From Pseudobutyrivibrio sp. (GTDB lineage Bacteria; Bacillota; Clostridia; Lachnospirales; Lachnospiraceae): a DNA stretch of 40,106 nt. The notes beneath the pieces are model-generated. The model made no database searches, had not been told where the DNA came from, and saw nothing but the letters and a program-made list of their open reading frames with translations. Position numbers and translations under genes: made by a program. Shown piece by piece: positions 6,660-36,245 of this stretch (position 1 is the first letter of the stretch; every line of letters starts with the position of its first letter). The stretch lies in assembly GCF_015057185.1 (NCBI RefSeq), contig NZ_SVEV01000028.1, positions 6,912 through 47,017 of the forward strand, read 5' to 3'.

Positions 6660-6914
6660 AAAAAAAGTCTCCTCCTTTTTCGTTTTTCTGATTTCTGAGA
6701 AAAATCGAACAAGTGGCGACTGTACACTTACCCGTGTGTATCATGGTTTAAAACTCAAAGTTCGAACCAAGTTCTCACACGTCGTCTCCGCAAACGCGGA
6801 CGGTTTTCTGTTGTACAGTGACTTGTCGTCAGTTTCCTAACTTGACATTCGCTCCACGGAAAACCAACCATTAAAGGTTGCAACCTCACGCTTCATAGCT
6901 ATCATGTCACAGCA
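6660..6914 (-). promoter_or_regulatory. Structured S10-operon leader RNA (candidate)
   Basis: No gene lies in this stretch. Transcript from the promoter at 6921-6949 would carry about 250 nt of leader. A long-range stem is visible: 6710-6714 with 6821-6825 (CAAGT/ACTTG) and 6719-6726 with 6812-6819 (ACTGTACA/TGTACAGT), 13 bp in all. It encloses a GC-rich hairpin at about 6784-6803 (7 bp, two-base bulge, GTTT loop) and a smaller GAAC/GTTC hairpin. A palindrome AGGTTGCAACCT lies at 6875-6886. Leaders of S10 operons are often feedback-regulated by a ribosomal protein; which protein acts here is unknown. Confidence 0.6.
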
Positions 6915-12068: not shown

Positions 12069-13114
12069 TATGCTGCCTCCTTTACATGAGCCTTCTGGGC
12101 TTTACGTGCTGCCATATAGGCTTTGAATACAGGAGCCTGCACAACTACAATTATTATTACTATGATAGCTTTGAATACTGGTGCAACATCTGTTGATACA
12201 CCCATAGCAAGAAGGGTTGTTGTTATTGCTTGGATTGTATAGGCACCAATTATTGAACCTGCTAGGTTAAATTTACCACCGCCAAGTGAGTTACCGCCAA
12301 GTGCAACTGCAAGGATGGCATCCAACTCGTAGTTTAAACCGATATTATTTGAATCAGCTGAATAAATTCTAGATGAAGCAACAATACCTGCAATACCAGC
12401 ACATAAACCGCAGATTACGTAGCAGATAAAGCAAATTACATCTGAGTTAATACCAGAAATTCTTGCTGCTCTACTATTAATACCAACTGACTGAATATAA
12501 AGTCCAAGTGCTGTTTTTCTAAGGAAAATAGCTACAACAAGAATAACTGCAATAGCTACAAATACTGGTGTTGGAATAGGGCATCCAGGGATAAAGTTAC
12601 CTAAGTATTTGTATTCCTCAACACGAATATATGTAATCTGGTTGTTACAAAGAAGAAGTCCTATAGCTCTGGCTGCCGTGAACAAAATCAACGTTGCAAC
12701 CATTGGTTGGATTTTAAGTTTTGAAACTAACGCACCATTGAAAGCTCCACAAACACCGCCCATTAATACACCTGCAATCATTCCAACTGCAATAGGCATA
12801 ACAAGAGCTGAAACATTTGTATTACCGTAACCAGCCAACAACATACAGCAGCTACATGCTGATAGTGACATAACTGATCCAACTGAAATATCAGTTCCCG
12901 CTGAAACTGCAACTACTAAGGTCTGTCCAACTGCAAGAATTGCAATTTCAGAACCTCTATTTAAAATATCAATTACTCTACCAAATAAAACACCGTTGCT
13001 AATTTTGATTGCAAAAAAATCTGGTGATTTAATCAAATTAATTAACAAAACCAATATCAAACAGAAAATTGGTAAGAACAGTGGCTTTTTAGTAAGCTTC
13101 TTAAAATTCTCCAT
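12068..13114 (-). CDS. ytfT: Sugar ABC transporter permease (YtfT-like)
   Basis: First membrane subunit of the importer, 348 residues with about 9-10 membrane helices. It has the BPD_transp_2 motif pattern VGQTLVVAVSAGTDISVGSV and the coupling loop TALGLYIQSVGINSRAARIS. Its start codon overlaps the stop of the ATPase gene by one base and its stop overlaps the next permease start, so the three subunits should be made in step. It probably pairs with the YjfF-like protein as a heterodimeric channel, as in E. coli. Confidence 0.88.
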   Translation of the reverse strand: MENFKKLTKKPLFLPIFCLILVLLINLIKSPDFFAIKISNGVLFGRVIDILNRGSEIAILAVGQTLVVAVSAGTDISVGSVMSLSACSCCMLLAGYGNTNVSALVMPIAVGMIAGVLMGGVCGAFNGALVSKLKIQPMVATLILFTAARAIGLLLCNNQITYIRVEEYKYLGNFIPGCPIPTPVFVAIAVILVVAIFLRKTALGLYIQSVGINSRAARISGINSDVICFICYVICGLCAGIAGIVASSRIYSADSNNIGLNYELDAILAVALGGNSLGGGKFNLAGSIIGAYTIQAITTTLLAMGVSTDVAPVFKAIIVIIIVVVQAPVFKAYMAARKAQKAHVKEAA

Positions 13115-14628
13115 TATTCTCCACCTCCTGCAATGGCTGCCATGACTGTCTCCTGAGTCATTTCACCAGATATCTCCCCTACCTGGGCACCATCACGCAT
13201 TACGTACATTCTTGTGCATGTACGAAGCATCTCTTCAATTTCAGACGAAATAAATACGATACTCATGCCCTCTTCCTCTGCAAACTTAAGAGCAAGCTTT
13301 TGGAATTCAGTTTTTGTACCGATATCAATACCTCTTGTAGGCTCATCCAAAATTAAGAAGTCCGGATGTGTGCATAACCACCTAGCAAGAATAACCTTTT
13401 GTTGATTACCACCTGAAAGCTGATTGATTGGTGTTTCGCGAGATGCTGTTTTTATCTGAAGCATATCAATAAATTTGTCAGCTATCTCATTTTGTTTAGC
13501 CGCTGGAATTTTCTTAAACAAACCGTTTCTTGCCTGAAGTGCAAGAATAATATTTTCTCTAACTGACAAATCACCAATACAACCATCAGCTTTTCTATCA
13601 TCTGGCAAGTAACCCATACCCGCCTTAATAGCATCGATTGGCTCTTTAATATTTACAGTTTTACCCTTAACCTGAAGAGTACCGCTTTGAGCTCTATCAG
13701 CTCCGTAAATGCATCGAACCATTTCAGAACGTCCAGATCCTAACAGGCCGGTAACGCCAACAACTTCGCCTTTTCTAATCTGGAAATCAAATGGTTTGAT
13801 TTTACCTTTATGACTAAGATTTTTGGCATCAATTACTACTTCGTCAGAAACATGGCCTGCTCCCTCTTTCTTAATAGATGCCAAATCATCAAAGTCCTTG
13901 CCAAGCATTGCCGCCACAAGCTTGACACGAGGCATTTCCTCAACAGTATATTCACCTGCGAACTCACCATTTCTAAGAACGGTGATTGTATCGCATACTG
14001 CATACACCTGCTCAAGGAAATGAGTTACAAATATAATTCCAACTCCCTTAGCTTTTAGGTCTCTCATTACTTTGAAGAGCTTTTCTACTTCGTTATCATC
14101 CAATGATGATGTTGGCTCATCAAGAATAAGCACCTTACAATCCATATCTACAGCTCTTGCAATAGCTATCATCTGCTGAATTGCAAGAGAATAATTTTCA
14201 AGCGCAATAGTTACATCAATTTTTATGTCTAGACCATCCATTATATCCTTTGCACGTTTATTCATTTCACGCCAATCGATGGTACCAATTTTTGTTTTTG
14301 GCTCACGACCAATAAACAAGTTTTCAGCAACAGTCAAATTAGGACAAAGGTTAACTTCCTGATAAACTGTAGCAATTCCTTTTTCTTGTGCCTCTAGAGT
14401 AGAGTGATTAACTACTGGTCCATCAAAACCAGCTACATGAATCTCTCCTGCATCAAGAGAGTAAACACCTGTCAAAACCTTAATAAGTGTAGATTTACCA
14501 GCACCATTTTCTCCCATGAGCGCATGGATTTCACCCTTTCTGAGAGTAAACTGGGCATGGCTCAAAGCCCTTACACCTGGAAAGGATTTGGATATGTCAC
14601 GCATTGTAATCAATAAATTTTCATCCAT
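13114..14628 (-). CDS. ytfR: Sugar ABC transporter ATP-binding protein (YtfR-like)
   Basis: Cytoplasmic double ATPase of 504 residues driving import. Domain 1 has Walker A GENGAGKST (39-47), a degenerate signature SLAIQQMIAIARA, and Walker B VLILDEPTSSLD. Domain 2 has a weak Walker A (GLLGSGRSEMVR), a good signature LSGGNQQKVILARW and Walker B FLILDEPTRGID. One good and one degenerate site is normal for the RbsA/XylG class. The ATG at 14628 has GGAG 8 nt upstream. It lies 167 nt after the binding-protein gene, behind a terminator-like hairpin and the structured element at 14658-14743, so expression below that of the binding protein is expected. Confidence 0.9.
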   Translation of the reverse strand: MDENLLITMRDISKSFPGVRALSHAQFTLRKGEIHALMGENGAGKSTLIKVLTGVYSLDAGEIHVAGFDGPVVNHSTLEAQEKGIATVYQEVNLCPNLTVAENLFIGREPKTKIGTIDWREMNKRAKDIMDGLDIKIDVTIALENYSLAIQQMIAIARAVDMDCKVLILDEPTSSLDDNEVEKLFKVMRDLKAKGVGIIFVTHFLEQVYAVCDTITVLRNGEFAGEYTVEEMPRVKLVAAMLGKDFDDLASIKKEGAGHVSDEVVIDAKNLSHKGKIKPFDFQIRKGEVVGVTGLLGSGRSEMVRCIYGADRAQSGTLQVKGKTVNIKEPIDAIKAGMGYLPDDRKADGCIGDLSVRENIILALQARNGLFKKIPAAKQNEIADKFIDMLQIKTASRETPINQLSGGNQQKVILARWLCTHPDFLILDEPTRGIDIGTKTEFQKLALKFAEEEGMSIVFISSEIEEMLRTCTRMYVMRDGAQVGEISGEMTQETVMAAIAGGGE

Positions 14629-14657: not shown

Positions 14658-14743
14658 GCTAGTTACGGTCTCAAGCCTTAGATATTGCTCCGCTCAACTA
14701 ACATGTTTCGCTGCGCAACACTAAGAGCTTGATACCTACTAGC
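14658..14743 (-). ncRNA. Structured intergenic RNA element, copy B
   Basis: An 86-nt sequence that folds on the reverse strand into one long hairpin: GCTAGT/ACTAGC outside, then TCAAGC/GCTTGA, then CTTAGTGTTGC with GCAATATCTAAG (one bulge), and an apical AAC-ATGTTA-GTT hairpin. A second copy (35911-35997) shares the sequence of loops and inner stem but has changed, still-paired bases elsewhere. It starts 12 nt after a terminator stem and ends 29 nt before the ytfR-like start. I do not recognise it as a named RNA family; it may be a processing or stabilising element, an antitermination element or a small mobile repeat. Confidence 0.65.
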
Positions 14744-14755
14744 TGATTTAATAAA

Positions 14756-14779
14756 AGGGGAAGGAAATTCCCTTCCCCT
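14756..14779 (-). terminator. Intercistronic terminator after the binding protein
   Basis: A 9-bp stem AGGGGAAGG/CCTTCCCCT with a 6-nt loop, followed on the reverse strand by TTTTATTAAAT. It lies 16 nt after the binding-protein stop and before the ATPase gene. Such partial terminators commonly let the binding protein be made in excess over the membrane subunits. Confidence 0.8.
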
Positions 14780-14795
14780 GCTTAGACATTACGAT

Positions 14796-15896
14796 TTAGT
14801 AAGATGCCTGTGAAGCTGCATCTGTAACAACTACAAGTTCTTCTGTAACTTCCTCACCAGCGTTGTTTGTGTAAGTAATGCTTGGAAGAATATCTTCAGC
14901 AACATACCATGGCTCTGTCATGAATGTCTGCTTCTCAACTGTCTCACCAGCTTCGAGCTTCTGAACGATATCTGCACAATACTCACCCTGAAGTGGGTAG
15001 CACATGAAGTCTGCATTGATGTCACCTGACTGTACGAACTCAAGACCAGACTTGCAAGCATCGAATGAGATAAGGATTACATCCTTGTCAACACCATATG
15101 AAACACCAGCTGCTGTCATAGCATCCATAGCACCAAATGCTTCGTTATCGTTCTGGCAAACAACTACGTTAAACTGTCCTTCATAAGACTTGCAGTATGA
15201 CTCCATAACCTGCTGTCCACCATCCTGAGTGAAGTTACCATCCTGAGAATCAAGGATTGTCCATCCCTCAGCATCTGCAATCTTCTTAAATCCATCTGTA
15301 CGTCCAATCTGTGCAGAAGAACCATTTGAGCCTTCGATTACAAGGATGTTAAGATCTGAGATGCCCTTAGCCTCAGCATAATCCTTTAACCATGTACCAG
15401 CTGCAAGACCTTCGTTCATGAACTCTGAACCAACCCATGAAACATACTTGTCTGAATCATCAATTGTTCTATCGATAACGATTACTGGAATACCAGCATC
15501 CTCGCACTCTGTAAGAACTGTGTCCCAACCTGTTGATACGATAGGATCGATTACGATGTAATCAACATCATCCTGAATAAACTGTCTAACTGCTTCGATC
15601 TGAGCTGCTGAATCATTATCGCAGTCAACAAACTGTAAATCATATCCCTTGTCAGCTGAGAAAGCATCCTGAACTGACTTTGTAGAAGCTGTACGCCAAT
15701 CAGACTCGTGACCAACCTGTGCAAAACCAACTGTGATTACATCACCGTCAGCTGCTGCTTCTTCTGTTCCTGCGTCTGCTCCAGCATCTGATCCAGCATT
15801 TCCGCTGTCAGCTGTGTCGCTGCTAGCGCCACCGCATCCTACCATTGATACAGCCATAAGAGCTGTGAGCATTCCTGCTACTATTCTTTTTTTCAT
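14796..15896 (-). CDS. ytfQ: Sugar-binding lipoprotein of the ABC transporter (YtfQ-like)
   Basis: Extracellular sugar receptor of the importer, 366 residues. The frame is open to 15992, but the signal peptide MKKRIVAGMLTALMAVSMVG with lipobox cysteine (GC-GG) and an AAGGAG 8 nt upstream place the start at 15896. A low-complexity Ala/Asp/Gly/Ser linker follows the cysteine. The Peripla_BP_4 domain shows GFAQVGHESDWRTASTKSV, FIQDDVDYIVIDPIVSTGWD, GIPVIVIDR and SSAQIGR, which match YtfQ, the galactofuranose-binding protein. Bound sugar is therefore likely a furanose or pentose, but not proven. It has a close paralogue at 17184-18203. Confidence 0.9.
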   Translation of the reverse strand: MKKRIVAGMLTALMAVSMVGCGGASSDTADSGNAGSDAGADAGTEEAAADGDVITVGFAQVGHESDWRTASTKSVQDAFSADKGYDLQFVDCDNDSAAQIEAVRQFIQDDVDYIVIDPIVSTGWDTVLTECEDAGIPVIVIDRTIDDSDKYVSWVGSEFMNEGLAAGTWLKDYAEAKGISDLNILVIEGSNGSSAQIGRTDGFKKIADAEGWTILDSQDGNFTQDGGQQVMESYCKSYEGQFNVVVCQNDNEAFGAMDAMTAAGVSYGVDKDVILISFDACKSGLEFVQSGDINADFMCYPLQGEYCADIVQKLEAGETVEKQTFMTEPWYVAEDILPSITYTNNAGEEVTEELVVVTDAASQASY

Positions 15897-15921
15897 AAGG
15901 TTTTCTCCTTCCTTCTCCTTA

Positions 15922-15942
15922 GCCAGGCCCCTTATTCCTGGC
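15922..15942 (-). promoter_or_regulatory. 5' UTR hairpin before the binding-protein gene
   Basis: A perfect 6-bp stem GCCAGG/CCTGGC with a 9-nt loop, just upstream of the binding-protein ribosome binding site. It may stabilise the message. The remainder of 15943-16033 shows no gene. Confidence 0.4.
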
Positions 15943-16033
15943 GGTCTTGTTTTTTCTGTAATTAATCTAACACGTATATTTTTCTCCAACAATATTACTC
16001 AATCAATTAAGTCTGTTTCTAATTTTCCAATAG

Positions 16034-33489: not shown

Positions 33490-35022
33490 TTACTGTGGTT
33501 CACGATGTAACTTTTTGATGCATGCTAAAGAGCCTACCATAAGAACAATACCAATAAGCAAGCACACTGCCCAGTTTCTTACAAAACCAGAAATAATATA
33601 AGAAACAAGTGAAACACCTGCTACCGTAAATGCGTATGGAAGCTGTGTGGTAACATGGCTGATATGATCACAGTCAGCTCCAGCTGAAGCCATGATAGTT
33701 GTATCAGAAATTGGTGAGCAGTGGTCACCACATACAGCACCTGCCATACAAGCAGAAATAGAAATAATCATAAGCTCGTTATTAATATCACCGCCAAATA
33801 CATTTACAACGATAGGAATGAGAATACCAAATGTTCCCCATGATGTACCAGTGGCAAATGCAAGGAAAATACCAACTAAAAATACAATAGCTGGAAGTAA
33901 GCTCATAAGCGCGTGGTTATCCGCAATATTTGATACAAGACCAGCAACATATTCCTTTGCTCCAAGAGAATCTGTCATAGCCTTAAGTGTCCATGCAAAA
34001 GTAAGAACTATAATTGCAGGCACCATACTCTTGAAGCCTTCTGGTATAGCATTCATACACTCACTGAAGCTAAGTACTCTAGTAGCAAGGAAAAATACAA
34101 TAGTAATTACAAGGGCAACTACTGAACCATAAACAAGACCAACAGATGCATCTGAATTTGAGAATGCATCAACAAAGCTCTCTCCTTGGAAGAAACCACC
34201 AGTATAAATCATTCCGATTACATTACAAATGATAAGAGCTGCAATTGGAAGCACAAGGTGGATAACCTTTCCACGCTCTGAAATTGGTGGGTGTGGCTGA
34301 TCCTCTGCACCTGTAAGGCTGGCAGCATCCTTCTTTTTACGCTCCTTTAATTCTGCTCTATGATTGAGCTCTGCAAGATTCATTGAACCGTAATCAAACT
34401 TCATATATGTAATAGAAAACATCATTACAAGAGTAAGTAATGCATAGAAGTTGTAAGGTATCGCTCTAATAAAAAGAGAAAGACCATTAGCGCCATCAAC
34501 AAATCCTGTGACTGCTGCTGCCCATGATGAAATAGGTGCAATGATACAAACTGGAGCGGCAGTGGCATCGATAAGGTATGCCAGCTTTTCCCTAGATATA
34601 CCATGCTTGTCAGTAACAGGTCTCATAACCGAGCCTACTGTAAGGCAGTTGAAATAATCATCGATGAAAATAAGCATTCCAAGAACGATAGTGGCAACCT
34701 GAGCACCTGCCTTTGTCTTAACATGTGTAACTGCCCATTTTCCAAATGCTGCTGAACCACCAGCACGGTTCATAAGCATTACCATACTTCCAAGGATTAC
34801 AAGGAAAATAAGGATACCCACGTTCCAACTGTCAGAGAGCTGTCCAATCATTCCATTAACAAAGATGTGCTCCATAGCAGCTGTAAGATTAAAGCCGGCG
34901 TAAAGTAGTCCGCCTGCGAATATTCCAATAAATAAGGAAGAGTAAACTTCTTTTGTAATAAGTGCAAGAATAATTGCGATTAATGGTGGTAGCAATGACC
35001 AAATAGTATTAGTAAATTCCAT
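33490..35022 (-). CDS. NhaC-family transporter, probable lysine carrier
   Basis: Integral membrane antiporter-type protein of 510 residues with about 12-14 helices. NhaC family marks are SSWAAAVTGFVDGANG, LAFATGTSWGTFGILIPIVV and SACMAGAVCGDHCSPISDTT. Lysine-riboswitch surveys have assigned NhaC-superfamily members as lysine transporters (LysW), and this gene sits directly after dapA under such a riboswitch. I therefore favour lysine uptake over sodium/proton exchange, by inference. The ATG lies 14 nt inside the end of dapA, with an AGGAG 13 nt upstream, so translation is probably coupled. Confidence 0.8.
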   Translation of the reverse strand: MEFTNTIWSLLPPLIAIILALITKEVYSSLFIGIFAGGLLYAGFNLTAAMEHIFVNGMIGQLSDSWNVGILIFLVILGSMVMLMNRAGGSAAFGKWAVTHVKTKAGAQVATIVLGMLIFIDDYFNCLTVGSVMRPVTDKHGISREKLAYLIDATAAPVCIIAPISSWAAAVTGFVDGANGLSLFIRAIPYNFYALLTLVMMFSITYMKFDYGSMNLAELNHRAELKERKKKDAASLTGAEDQPHPPISERGKVIHLVLPIAALIICNVIGMIYTGGFFQGESFVDAFSNSDASVGLVYGSVVALVITIVFFLATRVLSFSECMNAIPEGFKSMVPAIIVLTFAWTLKAMTDSLGAKEYVAGLVSNIADNHALMSLLPAIVFLVGIFLAFATGTSWGTFGILIPIVVNVFGGDINNELMIISISACMAGAVCGDHCSPISDTTIMASAGADCDHISHVTTQLPYAFTVAGVSLVSYIISGFVRNWAVCLLIGIVLMVGSLACIKKLHREPQ

Positions 35023-35893
35023 AAGATTTCATGTTCTCCTCTAAAATTTTTGCATGTGCCTCTTCCATTTCTGTAAGTGGCTTTCTAAGTGGGCCAGCCT
35101 CAAAGCCCATAATGTTGAGAGCCTTTTTAACTGGGATTGGATTGACCTCTGAAAACAGTGAATCAATAAGTGGCAATGCATCTAACTGCATTTTTGTTGC
35201 CTTCTTAAAATCCCCATCCAAGCACGCCTGACATAAGTCATGTGTCTGCTTAGGTGCTACATTAGAAAGAACTGATATTACTCCAAGTCCTCCAAGAGAC
35301 ATTATTGGTACAATCTGATCATCATTTCCAGAATAAATATCAATGATTCCCTCACCTAAATGTGCCAGCTTGGCAATTTGGCTAATATTTCCTGATGCTT
35401 CTTTTATAGCAACAATATTTTTAACGTCCTTTGCAAGTCTAACAGCTGTCTCAGGCATTATATTGCAGCCTGTTCTAGATGGTACATTGTAAAGAATACA
35501 TGGTAAATTAATAGCATCTGCTGTGTCCTTGAAATGTACATAGAGTCCATTTTGTGTAGCCTTATTGTAATAAGGTGTAACAAGTAAAACTGCATCTGCC
35601 CCAGCCTTTTCAGCTTCCTTGGATAAATAAATTGCTGTCTCTGTACTATTTGAGCCAGTACCTGCTATAACAGGGACTCTGTGATTTACAGTCTCAACAC
35701 AGTGTTTGATAACATCGATGTGCTCCTCATGTGAAAGAGTTGAAGCTTCGCCTGTTGTTCCGCAGATAACAATAGCGTCTGTATTGTTCTTAATTTGAAA
35801 CTCAATCAAGTTGTCTAATTTCTCATAATTCACAGAACCATCTCCAGCAAATGGAGTTACAATTGCAACAGCTGCACCAGTAAAAATACTCAT
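35009..35893 (-). CDS. dapA: 4-hydroxy-tetrahydrodipicolinate synthase
   Basis: First committed enzyme of the diaminopimelate/lysine branch, joining pyruvate and aspartate semialdehyde. The 294-residue barrel has the T46-T47 pair in CGTTGEASTLSHEEH, Y135 in ILYNVPSRTG, R140, and the Schiff-base lysine K164 in VAIKEASGNI. Full length and apparently intact. The ATG at 35893 has AGGAGG about 7 nt upstream. It is first in an operon controlled by the lysine riboswitch and terminator upstream, with the element at 35911-35997 lying between the terminator and its ribosome binding site. Confidence 0.96.
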   Translation of the reverse strand: MSIFTGAAVAIVTPFAGDGSVNYEKLDNLIEFQIKNNTDAIVICGTTGEASTLSHEEHIDVIKHCVETVNHRVPVIAGTGSNSTETAIYLSKEAEKAGADAVLLVTPYYNKATQNGLYVHFKDTADAINLPCILYNVPSRTGCNIMPETAVRLAKDVKNIVAIKEASGNISQIAKLAHLGEGIIDIYSGNDDQIVPIMSLGGLGVISVLSNVAPKQTHDLCQACLDGDFKKATKMQLDALPLIDSLFSEVNPIPVKKALNIMGFEAGPLRKPLTEMEEAHAKILEENMKSYGIY

Positions 35894-35910: not shown

Positions 35911-35997
35911 AGTCTGTTACGCTCTCAAGCCTTAGTATTGGTTCCGTCGACTAACACGTCTCCTCCACCAACACCAAGAGCTTGATAGCTACAGACT
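35911..35997 (-). ncRNA. Structured intergenic RNA element, copy A
   Basis: An 87-nt hairpin on the reverse strand: AGTCTGT/ACAGACT outside, TCAAGC/GCTTGA next, then CTTGGTGTTGG with CCAATACTAAG (11 bp with G-U pairs) and an apical GAC-GTGTTA-GTC hairpin. It is homologous to 14658-14743, with paired base changes at several stem positions. It starts 13 nt after the riboswitch terminator stem and ends 17 nt before dapA, that is, just before the ribosome binding site. It would be present only in transcripts that pass the terminator. Not recognised as a named family. Confidence 0.65.
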
Positions 35998-36003
35998 CAC
36001 ATA

Positions 36004-36039
36004 ATAAAAAAAAGCTACCCAAATTTGATGAGCAGCTTT
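36004..36039 (-). terminator. Terminator of the lysine riboswitch
   Basis: An 11-bp stem (36029-36039 with 36011-36021, two G-U pairs, 7-nt loop) followed on the reverse strand by a run of eight T, three of which are paired. It follows the aptamer by about 18 nt, the expected expression platform for an OFF switch. Confidence 0.85.
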
Positions 36040-36057
36040 GCAATATGCATTACGTAT

Positions 36058-36232
36058 GATAGCTCCCCATCTGAAATAACTTCGGATGACAGTCATACGA
36101 CTATTAATCGTATGCCCAAGACAGACACCTACAGGCGATGCCCTCTTTCGGCGAAATTCCCTTTTATCTCATATCATATGGGCCTGTCCCATCTATGAGA
36201 TTACTAATGTTTCTCGCAACCTCTATCTCTTA
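36058..36232 (-). promoter_or_regulatory. Lysine riboswitch (L box)
   Basis: On the reverse strand the landmarks of the lysine aptamer occur in order: GAGGTTGCGAG, an AGTA, TCGCCGAAAGAGG, GGGCATACG...CGTATGACTGTCA and the closing GGGGAGCTATC. The P1 stem is visible as GATAG (36223-36227) with CTATC (36058-36062), and P4-P5 as GCATACGA/TCGTATG. Lysine binding should favour the terminator at 36004-36039 and switch off dapA and the NhaC-type gene. Length of about 175 nt is normal for the family. Confidence 0.92.
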
Positions 36233-36245
36233 TTAAGTTGCACTT

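Follow-up and report, generated by a model that had tools for sequence, protein, structure and literature searches.

The window analysed here, a stretch of 40,106 nucleotides from a Pseudobutyrivibrio genome, contains two copies of a hairpin element, both located on the minus strand and each followed by a gene on that strand. Copy 1 (14658..14743, minus strand; delimited by BLAST, folding and a covariance model) separates the gene of a periplasmic binding protein upstream (14796..15992, minus strand) from that of an ABC transporter ATPase downstream (13114..14628, minus strand). The intrinsic terminator of the preceding binding-protein gene (14756..14779, minus strand) lies 12 nt 5′ of the element, and the 3′ end of the element is found 29 nt before the start of the ATPase gene. 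The hairpin comprises a 5′ outer arm GCTAGT (14738..14743, minus strand), which is site-specific apart from its conserved last GT, a core common to the copies (A..TCAAGC..apical hairpin..GCTTGA..GTA; 14664..14737, minus strand) and a 3′ outer arm ACTAGC (14658..14663, minus strand).

Copy 2 (35911..35997, minus strand; identified by folding, BLAST and the covariance model) has the outer arms AGTCTGT (35991..35997, minus strand) and ACAGACT (35911..35917, minus strand) on either side of the conserved core (35918..35990, minus strand). Upstream there is a lysine riboswitch (36052..36233, minus strand; Rfam RF00168), a neighbour and not a part of the element, followed by a terminator stem read from the sequence (36014..36036, minus strand). 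Copy 2 begins 13-16 nt past this stem, the range depending on the A-T pairs counted, and ends 17 nt ahead of dapA (35009..35893, minus strand), a gene of the dihydrodipicolinate synthase family. Both copies fold into one long hairpin that beats dinucleotide shuffles (z of -5.8 for copy 1 and -8.0 for copy 2). An earlier note on this DNA had given the coordinates of the two copies correctly, and the paired differences it had listed are present: the outer stem, the C-G/G-C exchange beside TCAAGC, the end of the middle stem and the apical AAC/GTT versus GAC/GTC. The placement after a terminator and before a gene, also described there, applies to both copies in the window but is just one among several contexts found genome-wide. 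Elsewhere in the window, an S10-Clostridia ribosomal protein leader (Rfam RF03136) was recognised at 6823-6904.

A BLAST search with copy 1 gave 42 matches in the window's own genome, 30 of which were used to build the covariance model. With this model 112 matches to the element of about 86 nt were found in the own genome at E<=1, 109 of them at E<1e-10, so that the pair of hairpins in the window is far beyond chance, and the description of a two-copy element holds within the window only. Matches were present in 27 of the 29 sampled Pseudobutyrivibrio genomes, the two genomes without them being 83 and 86% complete. None of 32 genomes of other genera gave a match (61 genomes scanned in all), and neither did any of 198 further Lachnospiraceae genera; weakly matching relatives may have escaped, as the filters were strict in both scans and only a few candidates were scored in each genome. 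When named genomes were scanned with an exact pattern, 87 stretches were returned, and the 80 listed carry the title Pseudobutyrivibrio or Butyrivibrio fibrisolvens 16/4. One copy used as the query matched nothing in phage and plasmid records.

In agreement with the earlier statement that no family fits, neither copy matched an Rfam 15 family at the gathering threshold, and none appeared at E<=1 around copy 1. A literature search at the level of titles and abstract openings in open-licence PMC text found no description of the hairpin element, and in the main text of PMC8040213 a term search met no mention of the genus. The hairpin is a dispersed repeat restricted to the genus as far as searched. 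The covariance-model search proposed in the earlier note did provide many matches with strong covariation; among the genomes scanned these came from Pseudobutyrivibrio only, and they lie in several contexts, the gaps between terminators and genes being one.

The predicted fold is strongly conserved among the copies. In the alignment of 30 copies, 95.8% of the cells at all 30 consensus pairs can pair, and two-sided changes number 163, while shuffles give 49 and slid controls no more than 25. For 104 copies from the own genome and 23 pairs the pairing amounts to 96.8%, with 552 two-sided changes compared with 152 in shuffles and at most 79 in slid controls; this count omits 7 of the 111 copies (three have enlarged apices, two are 109 nt long and two score low) and 8 of the 31 pairs, which the structure-free alignment did not keep in register. 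As the structure was derived from the same sequences on which it was tested, it has an advantage over the slid controls. The base of the hairpin has the conserved form GT-A / GTA-AC, and above it follow a conserved stem, CAAGC-U-CTNAG / CTNAG-GCTTG, and then the apical hairpin, whose closing pair is C-G. The bulge and the internal loops of the core are likewise conserved. G-U pairs outnumber A-C (47 versus 8, or 86 versus 27 on the model-fitted alignment), an excess that speaks for the strand as drawn but is supportive and not decisive, since the covariance model itself favours G-U. In the outer helix 187 two-sided cells were counted against 9 one-sided ones. Conservation extends to the inner GT..AC and CAAGC..GCTTG but not to the four outermost base pairs of the stem, for which 45 distinct 4-mers were counted among the 98 readable copies of the 104.

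An alternative apical module (GAGTATAGCG .. GCGAT) was noticed in place of the usual core apex at four positions (L109 3364-3523 and 228-386, L065 7647-7755, L074 2501-2609), and in genome G028 hairpins of a similar motif occur at two sites. In several species (L271, L257, L266, L277) comparable positions between genes are taken up by another family of hairpin repeats, which is GC-rich (CTCCCGCAGGGCACCC .. CTCGCGCTTGCC); it was also found near the own copies L049 2501 and L051 12058.

The genomic setting was established with gene calls from a home-made caller, and 111 copies, one of them added by hand, were classed by orientation. None of 110 copies lies inside a called gene, and for six there is an overlap of 1-22 nt with the end of a called gene. 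The majority (69/111) are placed between two genes that share the orientation of the element, 19 are antisense to both neighbours, 18 lie between convergent genes, three between divergent genes and two at contig ends. In tandem gaps the sense orientation thus prevails (69 versus 19, p=8e-8), and the 3′ end of the 69 same-direction copies is located at a median of 21 nt ahead of the start codon. Relative to the element-free gaps in these fetched loci, fewer of the element-bearing gaps are divergent (3/106 with the element versus 26/182 without, p=0.002), and convergent gaps are enriched over tandem ones (p=0.007). At the 18 convergent sites the copy is preceded by a mean of 6.4 A and followed by 6.1 T per 10 nt, and the 69 co-directional copies, with 2.7 T of 10 downstream, do not have this U-tract terminator form. 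Since the outer stem of the convergent copies also tends to be longer, with the A and T tracts flanking it, the element and the terminator appear to make up a single hairpin there.

Twenty downstream genes, drawn from the 30 best-scoring of the 69 copies, were scanned; 19 had Pfam matches, and every one of these represents a different family. A riboswitch or a leader of a single pathway was rejected on this ground. Three of the 20 genes encode the translation termination and rescue factors RF1, RF3 and SmpB (L071 1351-2367, L073 900-2489, L079 2026-2490), a grouping that may be due to chance.

The relation between the outer arms and the core was analysed in orthologous and in paralogous copies. 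Between the sister genomes G012 and G016, alignments longer than 500 bp with more than 86% identity add up to 294 kb, most of it with an identity close to 90%. Nine copies were chosen as shared on the strength of agreement in both site and core, and every one of these nine pairs has identical 6-bp outer arms; two chimeric sites were left out of this set, as was a tenth same-site pair with a core 68% identical, different arms and 10 two-sided paired changes. Within the basal helices of the nine pairs 16 of 161 pair cells have changed, 12 of them on one side, and only one of the 16 changes is two-sided with the pair kept. Over the whole predicted folds 25 of 294 pairs have changed and one is compensated.

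The paralogues of the own genome (104 of the 111 copies, those with findable GTA and GTAAC anchors) present a different picture. At a core divergence below 0.12 none of 19 pairs share their arms; their arms diverge by 0.625 on average, and in 17 of the 19 the pairing is perfect in both copies. The other bins of core divergence have mean arm divergences of 0.56-0.61 and few pairs with shared arms, for example 13 of 270 at 0.12-0.20. With the G012 and G016 copies added there are 85 pairs with near-identical cores, of which 71 differ in both arms, 3 in one and 11 in none; one G012 copy was entered twice in this count, an error from which the 19-pair count of the own genome is free. Two G012 copies only 723 bp apart illustrate the pattern, as they differ in a single core base, have unrelated flanks and carry the arms GCTGGT/ACCAGC and GCAAGT/ACTTGC. 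In another case (G000 L051 13837 versus G012 C11:473500) the cores are identical and one arm pair is changed on both sides, with both copies placed ahead of what looks like the same gene. Chimeric copies with mispairing were found in both G016 and G012.

Near-identical cores thus carry different self-complementary arms, and the nine chosen orthologues keep theirs, which indicates that most of the covariation in the outer stem comes from cores having moved or been exchanged. Judged from these comparisons, it is mostly the core that spreads or is exchanged, and for the most part the arms belong to the place. The outer-stem covariation, being largely decoupled from the core, does not measure compensation in place. 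What survives of the earlier view that covariation reveals a selected RNA fold is therefore the conserved fold and the covariation within the core, but not the argument from the outer stem.

Filled and empty states of orthologous sites were found upstream of dapA, upstream of the ABC ATPase gene, at a convergent site and between G012 and G016. Among 28 sequences read upstream of dapA, five contain full copies and 20 have no element; the remainder are two stubs (arms without a core, judged by eye) and one different hairpin in the same TGAGC..GCGGA frame. The arms differ between species at this site, and the sites without the element show no palindrome of the outer-stem kind. Copy 2 removed together with one of the two units of a short direct repeat flanking it (TA, at most ATTA) leaves the G007 sequence up to GGAGGA. 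This clean site and one nested copy are the candidates for a TA duplication; among the 104 copies, TA stands at -7 in 36% and at +5 in 28%. Upstream of the ABC ATPase gene the site is filled in 6 of 19 close orthologues, and in two of the six a second copy is nested in the apex of the first. Unrelated structured inserts (L245 and L239) are present at the same upstream site in two species.

For the convergent site, inspection by eye covered 25 of 27 loci: the terminator contains the core in seven and is plain in 12, two have a copy beside the terminator, three have other hairpins and one has a stub. The core-bearing terminator of G014 has 9-nt arms identical to those of the plain terminator of G005, G018 and G025, its relatives in the same clade; the structure of this G014 site is complicated and includes two left halves and another insert. 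The L064 convergent site was mostly uninformative, as most species have a different convergent neighbour there. Placed on a two-gene tree, the states of the sites are scattered, with gain and loss not polarised. Near 539.9-540.1 kb of G012:C11 the apical loop of one copy holds an insertion of about 65 nt, rich in hairpins, which the G016 orthologue does not have. With downstream genes mostly unrelated and sites filled in one species and empty in another, the covariation can no longer be taken, as it was in the earlier note, as proof of a fold selected at these particular genes.

Taken together, these data describe a folded core of about 74 nt at the tip of a short outer stem, present at more than 100 intergenic places, with outer arms particular to the place and mostly self-complementary, with copies nested in copies, with stubs, with dispersal or exchange of the core and with a terminator form at convergent gene ends. 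The element is not a dedicated regulator of one pathway. We conclude that it is probably a genus-restricted, non-autonomous, mobile-like hairpin repeat of the kind represented by ERIC, Correia and bcr sequences. The possibility raised in the earlier note, that the copies might prove to be a known mobile repeat, was half borne out: the element behaves as a mobile repeat but was not matched to any named one.

The folded strand, either RNA or one DNA strand, would be recognised by a putative mobilising enzyme, and only copies with an intact fold would spawn new ones, which would explain the covariation among the cores. Once in place the copy would be passive or have mild effects on the transcript, acting mainly as a stable transcript hairpin: between convergent genes it would form the body of a two-way terminator, and between co-transcribed genes a 3′-end or processing hairpin just before the next ribosome-binding site. 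The search for a mobilising enzyme covered two families, Y1 transposase (found in 10 of the 29 genus genomes) and reverse transcriptase (14 of 29), and the presence of neither tracks the element. Several observations speak against the mobile-repeat reading. The candidate TA duplication comes from a single site and one nested copy. The outermost 4 bp vary, unlike the usual transposon tips, and the G000 and G012 pair with identical cores indicates that arms can change without relocation. The sense bias and the tight spacing to the start codon could reflect a host function, and RF1, RF3 and SmpB among the 20 downstream genes were counted on the same side. Conversion of cores between old resident copies could also mimic spread, and the chimeras show that recombination occurs.

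The behaviour of the arms fits two routes, both compatible with the mobile-repeat reading. According to the first, which we regard as possible and no better than tentative, insertion of the core takes place at the tips of hairpins that were already present, such as terminators and small palindromes, and the outer stem belongs to the target. The G014 core between arms that form a plain terminator in related genomes and the terminator-type arms of the convergent copies are as expected from such insertion, but core loss from a terminator would produce the same picture, the G014 site is complex, and the element-free dapA sites have no such palindrome. Moreover, a search of 2.36 Mb revealed no clear pool of empty TGAG..CGGA hairpins that could serve as targets, only few short frames of this type, at least one of them a stub.

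The second route, which seems doubtful, is gene conversion, by which cores spread among old resident hairpins without insertion and the arms stay with the locus because the flanks are not homologous. It would account for the same core being found with different arms and for the mispaired chimeras of G016 and G012, but the nested copies in G012 and G016 and the plain versus element-bearing terminators require real gain or loss, and the arms at the dapA site differ between species. Within the mobile-repeat reading we also entertain, with considerable reserve, a hairpin that is recognised by its fold and gains new self-complementary arms at each site through tip insertion or arm copying (snap-back synthesis).

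An unlikely alternative to a mobile repeat is that the host has selected the element at intercistronic positions and 3′ ends as an RNA with a regulatory or processing role in cis, for instance as a binding site of an RNase or of some global RNA-binding protein. The strong fold with its core covariation, the bias to the sense strand of tandem gaps, the short distance to the start codon (a median of 21 nt) and the depletion of divergent gaps would all suit such a function. Against it stand the differences in site occupancy between closely related species, the mostly unrelated downstream genes, the single compensated change among the 16 in nine sister-species orthologues and the 19 of 111 copies that are antisense to both neighbours. 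Template switching, with one arm copied to the opposite side so that paired changes arise without selection, agrees with the small number of one-sided cells in the outer helix and with the one orthologous-looking pair whose arm pair changed on both sides, but is very improbable given the unchanged arms in nine of nine chosen orthologue pairs and the core bulge and internal loops, which are conserved and not corrected.

Among known systems, REP/BIME palindromes associated with RAYT are high-copy and intergenic, as is the element, and REPs measure 20-40 bp. Identity with them was rejected, as the element has about 86 nt and the Y1_Tnp domain occurs in 10 of 29 genus genomes. The intervening sequences of rRNA are insertions at hairpin tips that extend the helix; the element resembles them in this respect but does not reside in rRNA. 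In integron attC sites the order of the conserved GT..AC looks opposite to that in the element.

The bcr1-bcr18 repeats are intergenic and restricted to the Bacillus cereus group; bcr1-3 are MITE-like and often placed in UTRs or operon gaps, and bcr10 and bcr18 have a conserved fold (PMC3446304, as excerpted). Compared by description and not by sequence, they share with the element the restriction to one group and the intergenic position, but their host is unrelated and locus-specific arms are absent from the excerpted description. ERIC, Correia (NEMIS), RUP and similar MITEs are under 200 bp, non-autonomous and dispersed, and form one long stem-loop in the transcript; several have TA at the termini, filled and empty sites are known for Correia, and an orientation-dependent effect on mRNA has been reported for ERIC (PMC2229807, PMC2267715, both as excerpted).

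The element of Pseudobutyrivibrio resembles these repeats of the excerpted accounts in setting and shape. It differs in that its terminal arms vary yet stay complementary, largely independently of the core, in having no conserved terminal repeat at the tips, in nesting in its own apical region and in the lack of a matching transposase among the two enzyme families searched. Of the features by which MITEs are defined, the element is short, high-copy and intergenic with filled and empty sites, but does not have conserved terminal inverted repeats. Operon gaps and terminators of this rumen genus hold a highly dynamic set of nested hairpins. Textbook covariation in an outer helix need not mean compensatory evolution in place, as is seen here, where the histories of arms and core differ, and this calls for caution in covariation-based RNA discovery in repeat-rich genomes. 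A mobile hairpin recognised by its fold, if this is what the element is, would represent structure-guided dispersal with hairpins nested in hairpins, unlike the transposition of MITEs, which proceeds through recognition of the sequence at their tips.
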